A stretch of DNA of 64,000 bases. Origin: Pseudoalteromonas sp. Scap06. Lineage in GTDB: Bacteria; Pseudomonadota; Gammaproteobacteria; Enterobacterales; Alteromonadaceae. Shown in pieces: positions 45,919 through 64,000 of the stretch; position 1 is the first letter of the stretch, and every line of letters begins with the position of its first letter. The notes beneath the pieces are model-generated. The model saw nothing but the letters and a program-made list of their open reading frames with translations, was not told where the DNA came from and did not search any database. The DNA lies in assembly GCF_013394165.1 (NCBI RefSeq), contig NZ_CP041330.1:930001-994000 (forward strand). Reading direction: 5' to 3'. The position numbers and the translations under genes are program-made.

Positions 45919-46836
45919 ATGGCTCTATCAATTCAATCGAATATGGCTTCAATGTCAATTCAAAACCAGCTTGGTCGCAGCAACAACGATTTATCAACAG
46001 CGCTTGAGCGTTTAGGTTCTGGTTTTAAAATTAACTCTGCAAAAGATGACGCAGCGGGTCTGCAAATCGCATCACGCTTAAACGCACAAGTACGCGGCCA
46101 AGAAGCAGCACTTTATAATTCAAACAATGCCATGTCGATGATGCAAACAGCGGAAGGCGCGTTTGATGAAATGACTAATATTGCTTACCGCATGAAAGAG
46201 CTAGCAACACAGGCTGCCAATGGTACAAATGGTGATGATGAATATACAGCGATAAGTTCTGAGTATGTTGCTTTGACTGCTGAATTAAATAGTATTATGG
46301 ATAATACGTCATTTGGTGGAACAGCATTATTTAATGCAGACGCAGCATTGGCAGCAGATAAAGGTAAATTTGCTACAGCAGTTACGTTTCAAGTAGGTTC
46401 AAGTACAGCAGAAACATTGTCAGTTGATATCGGTGCTACTTTGTATGTTGATGGTACGGCTACAGATAAATCAGTTCAAGGAACTATTAATCAGTTGGGG
46501 GCTAGGGCCTCAACAGGAGCTACGCCATCAGGTAATGGTCGTATTGATAACCAAGCAGATGCAAAGGCTCAGCTTGATTTTGTTGATACGTTAGTTGATT
46601 CAATTGGCACGGCCCGCTCAGCCCTAGGTGCATCAATGAATCGTCTTGATCATACCATGAATAACGTAACGAACATGAAAGAAAATACTCAAGCGGCAGC
46701 GTCTACACTGATGGATGCTGATTTTGCTGCTGAAACATCTAATATGACTAAGCAACAGTTGCTTATGAACTCAGGTATTTCTGTACTTAGTACTGCTAAC
46801 AGCACAACACAAATGATTGGTTCACTTCTTCGTTAA
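45919..46836 (+). CDS. lafA: lateral flagellin 1
   Basis: Filament subunit (305 aa). The D0/D1 N-terminus (SMSIQNQLGRSNNDLSTALE, LGSGFKINSAKDDAAGLQIA) and C-terminus (ARSALGASMNRLDHTMNN, SNMTKQQLLMNSGISVLSTA) are nearly identical in all three copies. The central ~100 residues, the exposed part, differ. GAGGAAA lies before the ATG. Exported with the FliS chaperone and polymerised under the FliD cap. Confidence 0.97.
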   Translation: MALSIQSNMASMSIQNQLGRSNNDLSTALERLGSGFKINSAKDDAAGLQIASRLNAQVRGQEAALYNSNNAMSMMQTAEGAFDEMTNIAYRMKELATQAANGTNGDDEYTAISSEYVALTAELNSIMDNTSFGGTALFNADAALAADKGKFATAVTFQVGSSTAETLSVDIGATLYVDGTATDKSVQGTINQLGARASTGATPSGNGRIDNQADAKAQLDFVDTLVDSIGTARSALGASMNRLDHTMNNVTNMKENTQAAASTLMDADFAAETSNMTKQQLLMNSGISVLSTANSTTQMIGSLLR

Positions 46837-46884
46837 TAGCTTAACGATAGGTTACATAAACCGAGTAATCGATTAAAAAATACC

Positions 46885-46964
46885 AAAACAGCTGCATCTT
46901 TGATGCGGCTGTTTTTGTTTAGATAGAGCTCGGATAAAAATAAAAAAGGTTACTCAGCCTTTTT
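46885..46964 (+). terminator. tandem terminators after flagellin 1
   Basis: First hairpin: AAAACAGCTGCATC / GATGCGGCTGTTTT, TTT loop, T-run. A second weaker one follows at 46943-46964 (AAAAAGGTT / AGCCTTTTT). Both recur after flagellin 2. Confidence 0.85.
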
Positions 46965-47034
46965 AAAAGCTGCATCTAGTTTGGTAGCTATGTAATTATT
47001 TCGGCTGTATTAATAAATAAAATCAAAATAAAGT

Positions 47035-47063
47035 TTAGTTTTTTCTTAATGTGGTCGCTCTTA
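47035..47063 (+). promoter_or_regulatory. candidate LafS promoter of flagellin 2
   Basis: TTAG, 15 bp, GTCGCTCTTA, preceded by TG; the block ends 64 bp before the ATG. Shared with flagellins 1 and 3 and, in core, with flgM. Confidence 0.6.
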
Positions 47064-47127
47064 ATGATTAGTCACTTCTATTTATACTTTGTGTGTAAAT
47101 AGGTTTAAAACATAAAGGAAATTAAGC

Positions 47128-47976
47128 ATGGCTTTATCAATTCAATCAAATATGGCTTCAATGTCAATTCAAAACCAGCTTGGTCGTAGCAACAACGATT
47201 TATCAACAGCGCTTGAGCGTTTAGGGTCTGGTTTTAAAATTAACTCTGCAAAAGATGACGCAGCGGGTCTACAAATCGCATCACGCTTAAACGCACAAGT
47301 ACGCGGCCAAGAAGCAGCGCTTTATAATTCAAATAATGCAATGTCTATGCTGCAAACAGCGGAAGGTGCGTTTGATGAAATGACTAACATTGCTTACCGC
47401 ATGAAAGAGTTAGCGACCCAAGGTGCCAATGGTACAAATGGTGCGGATGAGTACACAGCAATGAAGTCTGAGTTTGTTGCTTTAGAAGCTGAGCTTAAAA
47501 GTATTATGGACAACACTAGCTTTGGTGGTACTAAATTACTAGATGCTACTGCAGGTAAATTTGATGTTGGCGCTGTATCGTTCCAAGTAGGTTCATCAAC
47601 AGCTGAAACACTTTCAGTTGATGTTAGTACAGCAGTACAGGATATTAACACAAGTGTTGCTACTGCAGGCACCATCGGTGACCTAGATGATGCGACGAAT
47701 TCATCAGCAGCAATTACTGGTATTGATACTTTTATTAAAAATATTGGTACTGCGCGCTCAGCACTAGGTGCATCAATGAACCGCCTTGAACATACTATGA
47801 ACAACGTAACCAACATGAAAGAAAACACCCAAGCAGCGGCTTCTACACTGATGGATGCTGATTTTGCTGCTGAAACATCTAATATGACTAAGCAACAGTT
47901 GCTTATGAACTCAGGTATTTCTGTACTTAGTACTGCTAACAGCACAACACAAATGATTGGTTCACTTCTTCGTTAA
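47128..47976 (+). CDS. lafA: lateral flagellin 2
   Basis: Filament subunit (282 aa, the shortest of the three). The conserved ends are as in flagellin 1. The central part (about residues 135-205) is shorter and distinct (LLDATAGKFDVGAVSF, TAVQDINTSVATAG). AAAGGAAA lies before the ATG. The 5' half is almost identical in DNA to flagellin 3 and the 3' end to flagellin 1, a sign of recent duplication or gene conversion. Confidence 0.97.
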   Translation: MALSIQSNMASMSIQNQLGRSNNDLSTALERLGSGFKINSAKDDAAGLQIASRLNAQVRGQEAALYNSNNAMSMLQTAEGAFDEMTNIAYRMKELATQGANGTNGADEYTAMKSEFVALEAELKSIMDNTSFGGTKLLDATAGKFDVGAVSFQVGSSTAETLSVDVSTAVQDINTSVATAGTIGDLDDATNSSAAITGIDTFIKNIGTARSALGASMNRLEHTMNNVTNMKENTQAAASTLMDADFAAETSNMTKQQLLMNSGISVLSTANSTTQMIGSLLR

Positions 47977-48024
47977 TAGCTTAACGATAGGTTACATAAA
48001 CCGAGTAATCGATTAAAAAATACC

Positions 48025-48106
48025 AAAACAGCTGCATCTTTGATGCGGCTGTTTTTGTTTAGATAGAGCTCGGATAAAAATAAAAAAGGTTACTCAGCCT
48101 TTTTTT
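48025..48106 (+). terminator. tandem terminators after flagellin 2
   Basis: Same two hairpins as after flagellin 1, part of the duplicated spacer, with one extra T in the second T-run. Confidence 0.85.
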
Positions 48107-48175
48107 AAAGCTGCATCTAGTTTGGTAGCTATGTAATTATTTCGGCTGTATTAATAAATAAAATCAAAATAAAGT

Positions 48176-48204
48176 TTAGTTTTTTTTAGGCATGGTCGCT
48201 CTTA
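48176..48204 (+). promoter_or_regulatory. candidate LafS promoter of flagellin 3
   Basis: TTAG, 15 bp, GTCGCTCTTA, preceded by TG. The 15 bp between the elements differ from copy 2 while both elements are kept, which supports their function. Confidence 0.6.
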
Positions 48205-48268
48205 ATGATTAGTCACTTCTATTTATACTTTGTGTGTAAATAGGTTTAAAACATAAAGGAAATTAAGC

Positions 48269-49195
48269 ATGGCTTTATCAATTCAATCAAATATGGCTTC
48301 AATGTCAATTCAAAACCAGCTTGGTCGTAGCAACAACGATTTATCAACAGCGCTTGAGCGTTTAGGGTCTGGTTTTAAAATTAACTCTGCAAAAGATGAC
48401 GCAGCGGGTCTGCAAATCGCATCACGCTTAAACGCACAAGTACGTGGCCAAGAAGCAGCGCTTTATAACTCAAATAATGCAATGTCGATGATGCAAACAG
48501 CGGAAGGCGCGTTTGATGAAATGACTAACATTGCCTACCGCATGAAAGAGCTAGCAACACAAGCTGCCAATGGTACAAATGGTGCGGATGAATTTACAGC
48601 TATGAATTCGGAATATGTAGCACTAGGTGATGAGCTTGCGAGTATTATGCAAAACACCAGCTTTGGTGGGACTGCTTTATTCGCAATCGCTGCTACTGCA
48701 AATGATGGTACAGCAGCCGATAAACGTGTTACCGCAGAGGTTATTGCCGCTGATACAGGGAAATTTGAAGCCGCAGCAGGCGTAACTTTTCAAGTGGGCT
48801 CGTCAACTGCTGAAACGTTAAGTGTCGGTATTGCAACAGAAATTGCAAGTTTGCATGCATCTGTTGGTACTGCTGCTGCAGATCAGACGGCTCTAGGTGT
48901 ACTTGATACTCAGGCAAATGCCCTGTTAGCTATGGCTGAAGTGGATACACTTGTTGAAAATATCGGCACAGCACGTTCAGCACTAGGTGCGTCAATGAAT
49001 CGTCTTGACCATACTATGAATAACGTAACCAACATGAAAGAAAATACTCAAGCGGCAGCGTCTACACTGATGGATGCTGATTTTGCGGCAGAAACGTCTA
49101 ACATGACTAAGCAACAGTTACTTATGAACTCAGGTATTTCCGTATTGAGTACTGCTAACAGTACAACACAAATGATTGGTTCACTACTTCGTTAA
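48269..49195 (+). CDS. lafA: lateral flagellin 3
   Basis: Filament subunit (308 aa). Conserved ends as in the other copies. The central segment is Ala-rich and unique (IAATANDGTAADKRVTAEV, ASLHASVGTAAADQTALG). AAAGGAAA lies before the ATG. Last of the array; followed by a hairpin and fliD. Confidence 0.97.
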   Translation: MALSIQSNMASMSIQNQLGRSNNDLSTALERLGSGFKINSAKDDAAGLQIASRLNAQVRGQEAALYNSNNAMSMMQTAEGAFDEMTNIAYRMKELATQAANGTNGADEFTAMNSEYVALGDELASIMQNTSFGGTALFAIAATANDGTAADKRVTAEVIAADTGKFEAAAGVTFQVGSSTAETLSVGIATEIASLHASVGTAAADQTALGVLDTQANALLAMAEVDTLVENIGTARSALGASMNRLDHTMNNVTNMKENTQAAASTLMDADFAAETSNMTKQQLLMNSGISVLSTANSTTQMIGSLLR

Positions 49196-54931: not shown

Positions 54932-55927
54932 ATGGAAAACAAAAATCAAGAAATCATCATCAAACGCTCACGTCGAAGAGCAACCGAAAAGCCTCATGGT
55001 GGTGCTTGGAAGGTTGCCTTTGCCGATTTTACTTTGGCGATGATGGCGTTTTTTATGGTGATGTGGATTATGGCGATTACCAATGAATCAGAGCGTGAAG
55101 AAATAGCACACTACATGCGAACTCACTCAATTTTTGATGGTGGCCCCGCTATTTTTGACCCTCAAAATAGCCCATTCCCCGTTGATTTAGGGGGTTCTCC
55201 TTCAGTAATTAAACACCTAGAGTCTGGAATTACGCCTCCGGACTCTCCAAAACCTGGAATGAGTGAAGTATTACAAGTGCCCGATGGCACCGTTGAGCCT
55301 AAAGCTGGGCAAGGCGAGAAGTTAAACTCAGCGATTGATAGCCAATTTGAAGCTTCATCTGAGCTGAGCTTATTACTGGAAAGTATTGAGGAACTTAGTA
55401 AAGAAGAGTTACTAAAAAATAACTTACTAGTTGAAGAAGTGCCCCTGGGGCTAAGAGTGATCATTAGAGACGACAAGCATCATCAAATGTTTGAACGCTC
55501 AAAGTCGCAAATGACCCCATTTTTTGAAGATCTGTTTCTATACCTTGGCGGCTTAGTTAAAGACATTAACAACAAAATTATTATTTCTGGGCACAGCGAT
55601 GCCAGCTTATTTGTTGATGGCAGCTCTCGTAATTGGGACATTTCTGGCGATAGAGCGCAGCAAGCAAGAAAAGTAATGACTATGGGCGGAATGCCATCAA
55701 GTCAGGTGCTTCAAGTAAATGCGTTTTCATCAAATCGGCCAATTAATAAAGAAAATAAGAAAGCCAGCGAAAACAGACGTGTTGAACTGCTGATCTTAAC
55801 TAAAGATGCGCAGGATAAATTTAACCAATTATTTGATGATAGCAACATTAACAATCCGATAAAAAAAGCGGCTGGTGCGGCAACGGCTAACAAACCCGTG
55901 CTACGTCTTGAAGAGAATTATGAGTAA
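54932..55927 (+). CDS. lafU: flagellar motor stator MotB (LafU)
   Basis: Stator subunit (331 aa). A cytoplasmic basic N-terminus is followed by the single helix with the ion-binding Asp (KVAFADFTLAMMAFFMVMW, ~Asp32), a long linker and a C-terminal OmpA-like peptidoglycan-binding domain (ISGHSDASLFVDG, WDISGDRAQQAR, NRRVELLI). The helix resembles proton-driven MotB proteins. Its end overlaps the PilZ gene by eight bases. Confidence 0.95.
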   Translation: MENKNQEIIIKRSRRRATEKPHGGAWKVAFADFTLAMMAFFMVMWIMAITNESEREEIAHYMRTHSIFDGGPAIFDPQNSPFPVDLGGSPSVIKHLESGITPPDSPKPGMSEVLQVPDGTVEPKAGQGEKLNSAIDSQFEASSELSLLLESIEELSKEELLKNNLLVEEVPLGLRVIIRDDKHHQMFERSKSQMTPFFEDLFLYLGGLVKDINNKIIISGHSDASLFVDGSSRNWDISGDRAQQARKVMTMGGMPSSQVLQVNAFSSNRPINKENKKASENRRVELLILTKDAQDKFNQLFDDSNINNPIKKAAGAATANKPVLRLEENYE

Positions 55928-56324
55928 CCAACCAGACACTAAACGAAGTTACAAAAGATGGAACTTAAACCTCAAAGATAATTACGAGCCTGAGTCAGTT
56001 CAGCTTGGCGGAGTAGGCGTGCAGTTATTACGCCGTTGTTTTATTGATATTTCACTATGCCATGGTGTGGCAAAAGATATTAGCGTGGGCGGTGTGGGTT
56101 TATTAGTGCCTGCTGAAAAGACGATCCCCAATAAAATTATTGTGGTGTTTGATAAAACTAATCGATTGGCAGGCAAGGTGATGTATCGTCGTGCAGTGAG
56201 TGAAAAATTAATGTTTTTAGGGGTTGAGTGGATAAGCAAAAATGAGCGCTTACGCAGCGATATTGTTAATCGTTTACAGTTACAAGCCCAATTGAAAAAA
56301 GCCAAAAAGACGAGCATAAGCTGA
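55920..56324 (+). CDS. PilZ-domain protein coupled to the lateral motor genes
   Basis: 134-aa single PilZ domain. LLRRCFIDISL gives only a partial arginine motif, whereas KDISVGGVG matches D/NxSxxG. Downstream strands NRLAGKVMYRRAV and LMFLGVEWI fit the barrel. The start was chosen at the ATG overlapping the motB end, where GAAGAG lies upstream; an earlier in-frame start inside motB would add an unrelated N-terminus. Placed between the stator and switch genes, it could act like YcgR on motor function; c-di-GMP binding is a prediction. Confidence 0.85.
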   Translation: MSNQPDTKRSYKRWNLNLKDNYEPESVQLGGVGVQLLRRCFIDISLCHGVAKDISVGGVGLLVPAEKTIPNKIIVVFDKTNRLAGKVMYRRAVSEKLMFLGVEWISKNERLRSDIVNRLQLQAQLKKAKKTSIS

Positions 56325-60544: not shown

Positions 60545-62620
60545 TTGAACTGGCGCAGTTTTACTCAACCTTATACCGCTATTCCTATTTTGCTGTTAGC
60601 TGTTTTGTCGATGGTTATTTTGCCATTACCAGGATGGTTATTAGATGCATTATTTACCTTCAACATTGTATTGTCGGTGATTGTATTGTTGGTCGCTGTG
60701 TCTACTAAAAAGCCACTCGATTTTTCTGTATTTCCGACTATTTTGTTAGTCGCTACCTTGATGCGTTTAACCCTAAATATTGCCTCAACACGTGTGGTGT
60801 TACTGCATGGCCATGAAGGCTCAGATGTGGCAGGTCGCGTTATTCAGGCCTTTGGTGAAGTGGTTATAGGCGGTAACTACGTCGTTGGTATTGTGGTGTT
60901 TGTTATTTTAATGGTGATTAACTTTGTGGTTATTACCAAAGGCGGTGAGCGTATTTCTGAGGTGGCTGCACGCTTTACTCTAGATGCCATGCCCGGTAAA
61001 CAAATGGCAATTGACGCCGATTTAAATGCCGGATTAATTGGCCCTGAGCAAGCAAAAGAGCGACGCAGTACTATAGCCCAAGAGGCCGATTTTTATGGCT
61101 CTATGGATGGCGCCTCTAAGTTTGTGCGCGGTGATGCCATTGCCGGTTTAATTATATTAGTGATCAACCTGTTGGGCGGTGTATCAATAGGTGCTTTCCA
61201 ACATGGTTTAAGTTTAGCCGAAGCGTTCCAACGTTTTGCGCTGTTAACTATAGGTGATGGCTTAGTTGCGCAAATTCCTTCGTTATTACTCGCGGTTGCT
61301 GCGGCAATTATTGTTACGCGTATGAACGATGAAGGCGATGTAAGTGAAGCAGTAGGTAAGCAGTTACTTGCCTCTCCGCGTGTTATTTTTACTGCTGCAT
61401 TAATTATGGTTACGCTTGGTATTGTGCCAGGTATGCCCACTGTCGCCTTTTTAGGGTTTGCCGCGCCATTATTTTATGTTGCTTGGCGATTACAACGCTC
61501 TCTCCCCGATAACTCTTTAATTGAAGCCGAACAAATGACCGACACCATTTTAAGTGAGCAACAGGCTAACTTAGAATGGGGAGATATTTCTCATGTTGAT
61601 AAGTTGTCGGTTGAGCTTGGCTTTCGTTTGGTTTATTTGGCCGATAAAGACAAAGGGGAAGAGCTGGTAAAAACCTTAAGAGGTGTGCGTAAAAATCTTT
61701 CTGAGCAACTTGGATTTTTATTACCGGAGATCAGAATAAAAGATAACCTAAAATTAAATCCACAAGAATACAAAGTAAACTTAGCCGGTGTGCCTGTTGC
61801 AAGTGCTAATGTAAACGCCAAAGAGTTACTCGCGTTAAATACCGGTGATGTATACGGCAGCTTAGATGGTGAATTAACCACTGATCCTGCTTATGGGCTT
61901 GAGGCCGTTTGGATAAAAGATGACAGCAAAACCCAAGCATTAAATATGGGTTACTCTGTGGTTGATTTAGGCACCATTATTGCTACTCATACCGGCAAAG
62001 TGATCAAAGAACATTTAGATGAGTTATTTAGTTATGAAGACGTACAAAAGCTAAATGAACGGCTAAAAGAAATCTCACCTAGCTTAGCCGAAACCTTCGA
62101 AAAAGCATTACCGACTAATTTACAGCTAAAAGTGATTCGTTTACTACTAAAAGAACACATAAGTATTAAAGACATAGTCACTATTGCCGGCACATTAATA
62201 GACAGCGTAGAGGTAACTAAAGATCCAATTTTGCTGGTTTCAGACGTACGCTGTGCACTGCAAAAAGTATTGGTAAAACAGGTGATGGGTAATCGTGATG
62301 AACTCAGTGCTTACAGCCTAGATGAAAAGCTAGAAAGCACTTTACAAAGCTCACTTGATCAAGCCATGCAGGCGGGCAAAGTAGTACTAGATAGTTTTGC
62401 GGTAGATCCTAATTTACTGGGGCAATTTCAACGCACCATGCCGATGATAGTCGAAGACATGAAATCAAGAGGTGTAACACCAACATTAATTGTGGTTCCA
62501 CAGCTAAGACCGCTGCTGGCACGTTATGCTAAAACTTTTACTAAAGGCAGCTTAGTCGTTCTTTCTTATAATGAAATTCCAGATACTATCCGCGTAGATA
62601 TACTCGGTTCGTTAGGATAA
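60545..62620 (+). CDS. flhA: flagellar export apparatus protein FlhA, lateral type
   Basis: 691 aa, the normal FlhA size. Eight N-terminal membrane helices; FHIPEP-family block LDFSVFPTILLVATLMRLTLN with RVVLLHG; the cytoplasmic loop RFTLDAMPGKQMAIDADLNA; the C-terminal nonameric ring domain with LRPLLARY. It starts with TTG, with GGAG nine bases upstream. Last gene before the riboswitch-controlled unit. Confidence 0.96.
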   Translation: MNWRSFTQPYTAIPILLLAVLSMVILPLPGWLLDALFTFNIVLSVIVLLVAVSTKKPLDFSVFPTILLVATLMRLTLNIASTRVVLLHGHEGSDVAGRVIQAFGEVVIGGNYVVGIVVFVILMVINFVVITKGGERISEVAARFTLDAMPGKQMAIDADLNAGLIGPEQAKERRSTIAQEADFYGSMDGASKFVRGDAIAGLIILVINLLGGVSIGAFQHGLSLAEAFQRFALLTIGDGLVAQIPSLLLAVAAAIIVTRMNDEGDVSEAVGKQLLASPRVIFTAALIMVTLGIVPGMPTVAFLGFAAPLFYVAWRLQRSLPDNSLIEAEQMTDTILSEQQANLEWGDISHVDKLSVELGFRLVYLADKDKGEELVKTLRGVRKNLSEQLGFLLPEIRIKDNLKLNPQEYKVNLAGVPVASANVNAKELLALNTGDVYGSLDGELTTDPAYGLEAVWIKDDSKTQALNMGYSVVDLGTIIATHTGKVIKEHLDELFSYEDVQKLNERLKEISPSLAETFEKALPTNLQLKVIRLLLKEHISIKDIVTIAGTLIDSVEVTKDPILLVSDVRCALQKVLVKQVMGNRDELSAYSLDEKLESTLQSSLDQAMQAGKVVLDSFAVDPNLLGQFQRTMPMIVEDMKSRGVTPTLIVVPQLRPLLARYAKTFTKGSLVVLSYNEIPDTIRVDILGSLG

Positions 62621-62756
62621 ATAGTTGTAAATGTAGTGTAAAATGAATTGACTATGAATTTTATAGAGTAATGTTTGCATTTAGTGATATTTAGCTATAG
62701 TCTACTGTTTTTATTGTACATAATTACTAGTTTTTATGTTGGTTTAAAATAATGCA
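62621..62756. other. spacer and promoter region before the riboswitch
   Basis: AT-rich. It probably contains the promoter of the riboswitch RNA; TTGCAT, 15 bp, TATAGT at 62676-62702 is a weak candidate. No LafK enhancer copy, sigma-54 site or GTCGCT motif was found here. No terminator for flhA is obvious. Confidence 0.35.
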
Positions 62757-62848
62757 TAAGTAAATTAAACGGCAAACTATGCGAAAGCATAGGACGCAAA
62801 GCTCCCAGTCTAAGGCAATCGCTACGATCGTGGGGTTACATTAACTTA
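62757..62848 (+). ncRNA. cyclic-di-GMP-I (GEMM-I) riboswitch
   Basis: All hallmark elements occur in order: GGCAAAC (62771); the P2 stem CTATGC / GCATAG closed by a GAAA tetraloop (62777-62792); GGACGCAAAGC (62792-62802); the tetraloop-receptor-like GTCTAAGG (62808-62815); and GGGGTTAC (62832-62839). Closing stem P1 is formed by TAAGT and TAA with TTAACTTA. It is followed by a 92-nt AT-rich leader to motY without a clear terminator hairpin, so control of translation is more likely than termination. Ligand binding is inferred from consensus. Confidence 0.93.
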
Positions 62849-62940
62849 GTGATATTCATTAATACTGTGTTTGTATTTGTTGTATTTCGCTATTGATTTA
62901 AAAAACTTAATTGTTCTATTTAACTTTATACGGAATATAC

Positions 62941-63813
62941 ATGAATAGATTAACTCAGCTTATTAAATTTGCATTGCCCTGTGTTGTGTTTGTGTTGCCG
63001 CAGGGGCACGCATCAGAGCAAAATCTGGTGCAAAGCTACGAAAACTCCACCTGGTCAGTCAGTAGCAACCCGTTTGCTTGCTCTCTCAAGCAGCGCTTTG
63101 ATAATTATGCGCTACTTGAAGTGAAATCAGTACCTGCACAACAGCAACAACTTGTATTTACTTGGCTTTTACAAGATAAACCGATAAAAAGTTTGCATGT
63201 TCTCTCTCGTAAAGCCGATTGGCAGCCAGCAAATACAGTTCTCACGCCGTTAAACTTTATGTCTAAAGATATTAAAGACAATGAAATACAATTTTCTGCA
63301 GATATGACCCCATTACTTCGCGTTATTAAGCAGGGCGGTTGGTTAGACAGCATTATAAACTTTGGTGATGAACAACTTCGCCTTACCTTTACTAATACCC
63401 ATAGCGATAAAATAGTTGCAGATTATCAGCAGTGTTTAGCTAGTTTATCTCCGCTTTCTTGGGAGCAAGCACGCGACCATCAATTACAGTTTGCTAGTGG
63501 GCAGCGCACAGTAACAACGGCTAAAGATCTTAAATTTTTAAAAGATTTAGTGCGTTACATCTCTTTAGACAGCCGTGTAAGTAAAGTACTGGTTGATGGC
63601 CACACGGATAATACGGGCTCGCCGCTATCAAATCGGCTGCTTTCAAAAGAAAGAGCAGATGACGTTGCTGCCAGACTCATTGAATTTGGTTTACCAAAAG
63701 ACATGTTAGAAGTAAGAGCGCATGGTCAACGTTATCCCATTATAAAAAATTCAGAGCAGGGCGCATCGTCTAATCGCCGTGTTTTAGTTCGTCTTTTCCG
63801 ACACTCAAGTTAA
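62941..63813 (+). CDS. motY: flagellar motor protein MotY, lateral type
   Basis: Periplasmic stator-associated protein (290 aa). Signal peptide ~1-25 (PQGHASEQ), N-terminal MotY domain (NSTWSVSSNPFACSLKQRFD) and C-terminal OmpA-like peptidoglycan-binding domain (KVLVDGHTDNTGSPLSNRLL, RAHGQRYPI, SNRRVLVRLF). The ATG with GGAA before it was preferred to a start ten codons earlier. First gene behind the c-di-GMP riboswitch; lafK follows 20 bp later, as in Vibrio lateral clusters. Confidence 0.9.
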   Translation: MNRLTQLIKFALPCVVFVLPQGHASEQNLVQSYENSTWSVSSNPFACSLKQRFDNYALLEVKSVPAQQQQLVFTWLLQDKPIKSLHVLSRKADWQPANTVLTPLNFMSKDIKDNEIQFSADMTPLLRVIKQGGWLDSIINFGDEQLRLTFTNTHSDKIVADYQQCLASLSPLSWEQARDHQLQFASGQRTVTTAKDLKFLKDLVRYISLDSRVSKVLVDGHTDNTGSPLSNRLLSKERADDVAARLIEFGLPKDMLEVRAHGQRYPIIKNSEQGASSNRRVLVRLFRHSS

Positions 63814-63833: not shown

Positions 63834-64000
63834 ATGAGTCAAAGATACCTTTTATGGATCAGTGAACAACAGCCAACGTCTGAAATTCAGCAGGTTGTAT
63901 TTGCCGAAAACTTTAAGTTTCTGCATACAAACTCCATCAGCGATGCGGTTAGTCACTGCCTTACCAGTAAGCCAGAGCTTGTGTTTGTTGATGCAGATAC
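63834..64000 (+). CDS. lafK: N-terminal fragment of LafK-like sigma-54 activator (runs off window)
   Basis: Only the first 55 residues are visible: MSQRYLLWISEQQPT, then a receiver/FleQ-type pattern ending ELVFVDAD. This fits the degenerate N-terminal receiver domain of FleQ/LafK-type activators. The AAA+ domain that would confirm it lies outside. Assignment rests on position after motY and on the presence of sigma-54 promoters in the cluster. AAAGGA lies upstream. Confidence 0.6.
   Translation, partial: MSQRYLLWISEQQPTSEIQQVVFAENFKFLHTNSISDAVSHCLTSKPELVFVDAD

Follow-up and report, generated by a model that had tools for sequence, protein, structure and literature searches.

The end of the window, by which we mean the whole 64,000-nt stretch of DNA analysed here, is a lateral-flagellar cluster, in which FlhB and FlhA score above their NCBIfam cut-offs, FliD-, FliK-, FliM- and MotB/LafU-like proteins all fall under theirs, and FliL, a sigma-70-family factor, a PilZ protein and FliN are recognized by Pfam. 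The lateral flhA gene (60545–62620, plus strand; TIGR01398 FlhA, 777 bits, cut-off 772.1) is separated by 320 nt from the motY gene of the lateral system (62941–63813, plus strand), which encodes a protein of 290 aa with the Pfam domains MotY_N (35.0 bits, cut-off 26.3) and OmpA (56.2 bits, cut-off 27.2) and reaches 69.5 bits with the NCBIfam MotY model, under the cut-off of 400. The start codon of motY is the ATG at 62941, and a GGAA begins 9 nt upstream of it. The next gene starts at 63834 on the plus strand, 20 nt after motY, and continues beyond the window end at 64000 (L002 3834–5147). Its product of 437 aa combines receiver-like, sigma-54-interaction and Fis-type HTH domains (Pfam Response_reg, Sigma54_activat with 232.7 bits, and HTH_8), so that the earlier proposal of a likely LafK activator directly 3' of the lateral motY agrees with the domain searches; we use the name as a putative one, given by domains and position. 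The fliE gene is located after this activator gene. In Vibrio parahaemolyticus, the expression of lateral-flagellar genes requires LafK, according to the accessible text of two papers (PMC5178100, PMC10304486).

Several other elements lie in or near the cluster. Three consecutive flagellin genes at 45919–49195 have LafA as their best NCBIfam model, each under its cut-off. A PilZ-domain protein (55875–56324; 24.6 bits, cut-off 22.5) adjoins the motB-like gene and is probably the counterpart of FilZ, a c-di-GMP-binding protein described in the accessible part of one paper as belonging to the lateral cluster of Pseudoalteromonas sp. SM9913 (PMC10304486); it would then be a second c-di-GMP input in the cluster. 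Beyond the window, 3' of the fliE genes and an HrpB-type helicase, a haem-NO-binding (HNOB) protein is followed by a histidine kinase (L002 13284–14799), a possible NO input near the cluster.

A possible sigma-70 promoter, TTTGCA-16-TATAGT, is present upstream of the aptamer at 62674–62701 on the plus strand, and the promoter scan that reported it stands at chance level (2 found, 1.9 expected). The transcript is predicted to start near 62708. In an alignment judged by eye, the spacing of this candidate is kept in nine of the ten leaders from the genus (TTTGCA/TTGCTT, 16 nt, TATAGT/TATAAT), G099 being the exception. No sigma-54 promoter was found before the aptamer in the flhA-motY gap. The sequence-only reading had suggested that c-di-GMP could act through LafK on every sigma-54 flagellar promoter, a claim that found no sequence support: scans with a sigma-54 consensus gave 33 matches in the window against 48.1 expected by chance, and 15 against 14.9 in a second scan.

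The gap between flhA and motY contains a class-I c-di-GMP aptamer. Positions 62761–62843 on the plus strand match RF01051 (c-di-GMP-I) over the complete model (1–87) with 71.2 bits in an Rfam covariance search, well above the gathering score of 35 bits, with E-values of 1.8e-13 in a 2-kb search and 5.8e-12 in the search of the 64-kb window. The near-consensus aptamer read earlier from the letters is thus borne out by the covariance model, and its span, 62757–62848, corresponds approximately to this match plus the P1 helix (62756–62760 with 62845–62849). The aptamer is situated in the 5' leader on the strand of motY, with 97 nt between the Rfam match and the ATG. No other Rfam match reaches the gathering thresholds in the window, and scoring 150 of the 297 first-look candidates from the two contigs of the genome (4.13 Mb) gave no second RF01051 match. 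For c-di-GMP-II, no match was obtained in the genome by a search whose controls were also silent. Among 14 distinct leaders, P2 is 98.8% paired and five of its six pairs have changed on both sides with pairing kept, while the junction pairs are invariant.

The arrangement is conserved well beyond this genome. A MotY match at E <= 1e-20 occurs in 10 of 108 genomes of the genus, and all ten have an RF01051 match on the same strand, 94–100 nt before the motY start codon; five of these leaders show no difference over 158 nt from four named Pseudoalteromonas loci. RF01051 matches are common in general, being present at least once anywhere in the genome in 124 of 196 relatives. Among 394 genomes of the order, a MotY match at E <= 1e-40 was obtained in 15 that do not belong to the genus, and within a flank of 1500 nt the aptamer precedes motY in eight of them (best model RF01051 in five, RF03167 in three) and is absent in seven. 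The three loci that fit RF03167, c-di-GMP-I-GGC, better than RF01051 are L050, L054 and L055, the last of which is identical over 158 nt to a Moritella locus (L105).

A scan of named genomes with an alignment query, where a single-protein query had found none, retrieved 107 relatives, the best 80 of which were used together with an aptamer model built from 17 aptamers. In 29 of the best 80 of 107, the aptamer lies upstream of motY on the motY strand: 13 belong to Rheinheimera, four to Pseudoalteromonas, three to Gammaproteobacteria MAGs, two each to Shewanella and Moritella, and one each to Colwellia, Aestuariibacter, Bowmanella, Thalassomonas and an uncultured Alteromonadaceae. The other 51 of these 80 gave no match with the 17-aptamer model (E <= 1) and none with Rfam at gathering thresholds; they come from Vibrio, Photobacterium, Enterovibrio, Grimontia, a Vibrionaceae MAG, Ferrimonas and Marinobacter, and two of them covered only 299 nt (L090) and 128 nt (L092) before the MotY match. 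From this distribution over the named loci, the aptamer is a clade trait, and the examined Vibrio-type systems are without it. LafK follows MotY in 78 of the best 80 of 107 named loci, the exceptions being L105, where the contig ends, and the Marinobacter locus L135. In a separate set, the same order is seen in 25 of 26 loci. FlhA is directly upstream and in line in Pseudoalteromonas-, Rheinheimera-, Colwellia-, Aestuariibacter-, Bowmanella- and Shewanella-type loci, and not directly upstream in the Moritella, Thalassomonas and L134 loci. The lateral cluster of Colwellia sp. C2M11 (L063) is as close to that of the window as those of other Pseudoalteromonas (FlhA 85% and LafK 74% identity), which may reflect transfer between genera.

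Altogether, 47 aptamer loci with 36 distinct leaders were collected, and the search for the same aptamer before motY in related genomes, which had been suggested along with the covariance check, was thereby answered positively. A decayed or fortuitous aptamer with no function has next to no probability given the score, the covariation of P2 and the same position in 36 distinct leaders. We regard the aptamer before motY as genuine and conserved, with the look of a functional element; its riboswitch class is known and its target is new.

A common platform links the aptamer to the ribosome-binding site of motY in 15 leaders, namely the ten of the genus and L063, L064, L066, L070 and L072. P1 consists of UAAG/CUUA, with one extra pair in most of these leaders; in the window, the four pairs are formed between AUAAG (62756–62760) and CUUAG (62845–62849). 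The 3' strand of P1 continues into AGYGR, here called the A strand (AGUGA, 62848–62852), which overlaps the end of P1. At 28–34 nt beyond the A strand, a T box, UUYCGCU, forms a conserved island within a variable stretch, and the GGAA of the ribosome-binding site starts 26–67 nt after the start of the T box. In the window, the T-box region is GUAUUUCGCU (62882–62891), whose UCGCU can pair with the A strand or whose GUAUUUCG can pair with the ribosome-binding-site region CGGAAUAU (62931–62938, with GGAA at 62932–62935), an 8-bp partner of 62882–62889 with a predicted pairing probability of 0.97 in the full leader. All these strands are on the plus strand. Both pairings, YCGCU with AGYGR (A:T) and UUYC with GGAA (T:SD), are canonical in 15 of 15 leaders; they are mutually exclusive, and A:T also excludes the outer end of P1.

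The degree of conservation differs between these helices. P1 is 97% paired and nearly invariant among the leaders of the shared platform, and in other clades its letters differ while the helix persists, as in GCUUA/UAAGC (L084) and ACCUUU/AAAGGU (L098). For A:T, 70 of 70 cells in 14 distinct rows are canonical, against 95.4% in shuffles and 37–73% in slid versions. One A:T pair has changed from A-U to G-C, one from C-G to U.G and one from G-C to G.U; the double change separates the sequences into two sets and may have arisen once, and neither the pairs changed on both sides nor the pair types exceed the shuffles. The T:SD pairs were read directly from the sequences and kept out of the pair counting because MAFFT put the ribosome-binding site of L063, L064 and L066 in the wrong place. 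Read in this way, the pair immediately 3' of GGAA appears as A-U, G.U, G-C or U-A, and L070 and L072 no longer have it.

Other candidate signals in the leader were tried and set aside. An intrinsic terminator as the riboswitch output was rejected, as simple scans of 62500–63100 and of L002 2600–3900 gave none, in line with the earlier remark that no terminator was obvious. Anti-SD complementarity was rejected as a stand-alone proof, with p < 0.05 in five of 33 leaders and p 0.445 in the window, and so was the double complementarity of the T box, which is matched by 112–1016 of 2000 shuffles per leader; for the window leader, 1016 of the 2000 shuffles contained a 7-mer complementary to both partners. 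At Rheinheimera-type loci (e.g., L068, L069, L075, L065), another platform hides the ribosome-binding site, for example by CCUUUUAUUU with AAAUAAAAGG; the hiding arms of L075 are CCUUUUAUUGC with GCAAUAAAAGG, and those of L065 are different again with the complementarity kept.

The balance between the two pairings was explored with thermodynamic models, which omit the tertiary contacts of the ligand. For ligand-free transcripts ending before the ribosome-binding site, A:T is favoured in 14 of 15 leaders (P 0.46–0.98; L064, 0.00), and the probability of P1 is at most 0.02. For the full-length RNA without ligand, T:SD is favoured (P >= 0.77) in eight of 15 leaders, including the window; five favour A:T (P 0.82–0.93), L072 is mixed and L064 favours neither. 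Opening the ribosome-binding site of the window is predicted to cost 1.2 kcal/mol with A:T formed, 3.9 kcal/mol unconstrained and 6.1 kcal/mol with P1 and the junction pairs formed, and the cost with P1 and junction exceeds that with A:T in 14 of 15 leaders.

The effect of P1, taken as the opening cost with P1 formed minus the unconstrained cost, was calculated for 33 of the 47 aptamer loci; ten identical loci were dropped, the identical pair L041/L042 was retained, L050, L054, L126 and L134 lay outside the set, and start codons outside the genus were picked manually as in-frame candidates with a purine-rich site. P1 raises the cost in 14 of the 15 platform leaders, the value for L063 being negative. 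When the interval was shuffled with P1 and the ribosome-binding site kept (100 shuffles per leader), the effect was reached by 0–6 shuffles in nine leaders, by 11 in the window and by 14–77 in five. All 18 leaders of other clades, whose platforms are unrelated, have a positive effect of 1.1 to 6.9 kcal/mol, which was reached by at most two of 60 shuffles in 13 leaders and by 4–11 of 60 in five. The shuffles themselves give a slightly positive effect on average in most leaders. Overall, the models predict that P1 formation makes opening of the ribosome-binding site more costly in 32 of 33 leaders.

We therefore favour, with moderate confidence, a class-I c-di-GMP riboswitch by which high c-di-GMP would turn OFF the translation of the lateral motY and so probably lower the expression of lafK and the fliE genes. 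At low c-di-GMP, the growing RNA would pair the A strand (AGUGA) with the T box (UCGCU) first, and the ribosome-binding site of motY would then emerge free. At high c-di-GMP, the bound ligand would lock P1, the A strand would be occupied and the T box released, whose GUAUUUCG could then pair with CGGAAUAU and hide the site. Such a switch is expected to operate during transcription; since the full-length hidden state is favoured without ligand in eight of 15 leaders, including the window, it would have to act by timing. The strongest argument for the OFF direction, at the level of folding models, is that the same direction is predicted in clades with unrelated platforms. Turning swarming off at a high signal is probably the purpose of the arrangement.

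The opposite sign, a ligand that exposes the ribosome-binding site of motY and so turns translation ON, is quite improbable to us: known c-di-GMP-I switches go both ways, e.g., ON for pilM and OFF for Cd1 in the accessible text of one paper (PMC9262584), and L063 is without the OFF tendency, but the direction predicted in the remaining 32 leaders is OFF. Somewhat less improbable, although still unlikely, is that the aptamer governs the length or decay of the transcript through termination by Rho or the access of RNases to the AU-rich leader, with lafK controlled together with motY. The logic of the P1, A and T strands could just as well open or close a site for Rho or an RNase, and control of the whole operon is most sensible if lafK is the target. 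Against this stand the empty scan for intrinsic terminators, the T box, which in all 15 leaders of one platform is complementary to the very ribosome-binding site, and the rise in opening cost upon P1 formation in all 18 leaders with other platforms.

How far the control reaches is the weakest step of the OFF mechanism, which lies between motY and lafK. The sequence-only reading had suggested that the riboswitch could control the motY-lafK unit as a whole; the aptamer in the leader and its position, kept over several genera, agree with this, but the predicted output contacts the ribosome-binding site of motY only. As lafK has a ribosome-binding site of its own (AAAGGAA before the ATG at 63834), an effect on it would need polarity, mRNA decay or coupling. 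Control that ends at motY, trimming a lateral motor part and hardly affecting lafK, is doubtful but has a real chance; it is compatible with the OFF switch, which needs polarity to go further. The separate site 20 nt past motY speaks for it, while the recurrence of LafK after MotY in the loci counted above and, as weak evidence, the lack of any promoter-like site seen by scan inside motY speak against it.

Cyclic di-GMP governs the choice between a swarming and a sessile way of life, and in Vibrio its influence on lateral flagella is ascribed to proteins. Position 20 of the c-di-GMP-I literature, which we take to be Rfam position 11, is a G in the window (62771) and in 33 of 36 distinct leaders, and an A (AGCAAAC) in the other three, from Colwellia sp. 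C2M11 (L063), Shewanella mangrovi (L070, the same as L046) and S. fodinae (L072). A G at this position is said to favour c-di-GMP over cGAMP in the accessible part of one paper (PMC10333796), and the window thus fits c-di-GMP as its predicted ligand, as expected. In a Geobacter aptamer, an A20G change shifted selectivity from cGAMP to c-di-GMP, according to the text available (PMC6456294), and therefore the three A-bearing leaders may sense cGAMP.

Our literature search, with subscription papers mostly outside its reach and a listing in some survey possible, found no description of a c-di-GMP riboswitch ahead of either motY or lafK, and a word search showed that "riboswitch" is absent from two SM9913 swarming papers and one Shewanella WP3 paper. 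The leader would connect c-di-GMP directly, at the RNA level, with the operon that encodes the lateral activator, an arrangement shared by loci under eight genus names, and its design is open to tests by point changes in marine species, for example in Pseudoalteromonas sp. SM9913. It would also explain how, in one clade, lateral flagella can be placed under the same second messenger by another route. As a speculation to which we give a low probability, an RNA checkpoint might sit atop the lateral-flagellar hierarchy in one marine gammaproteobacterial branch, not found in the Vibrio branch, with its output (the hidden motY ribosome-binding site) kept and its sequence reinvented between clades; in Shewanella mangrovi, S. 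fodinae and a Colwellia, the A at position 20 would mean a changed input, and swarming there may answer cGAMP instead of or besides c-di-GMP.

Among known systems, the window resembles RF01051 (GEMM-I) in its full-length covariance match, its conserved core and the G at the position-20 equivalent, and differs in its target, the leader of the lateral motY-lafK unit. The related c-di-GMP-I-GGC class (RF03167) is the best fit for L050, L054 and L055 at the same place before motY, whereas the window fits RF01051 best. With GEMM-Ib, the cGAMP class of Geobacter, the window has the fold family in common, but GEMM-Ib carries an A at position 20 in the accessible text of the sources (PMC6456294, PMC8835794) and the window a G at 62771, which places it outside that class. 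The closest likeness in logic is to Cd1, an OFF switch of Clostridioides difficile, in which, as far as the available text describes it (PMC9262584), an aptamer strand likewise competes with a downstream switching strand that the ligand frees; the second partner of that strand builds a terminator in Cd1, whereas in the window, where the scan found no terminator, it is the ribosome-binding site of motY.
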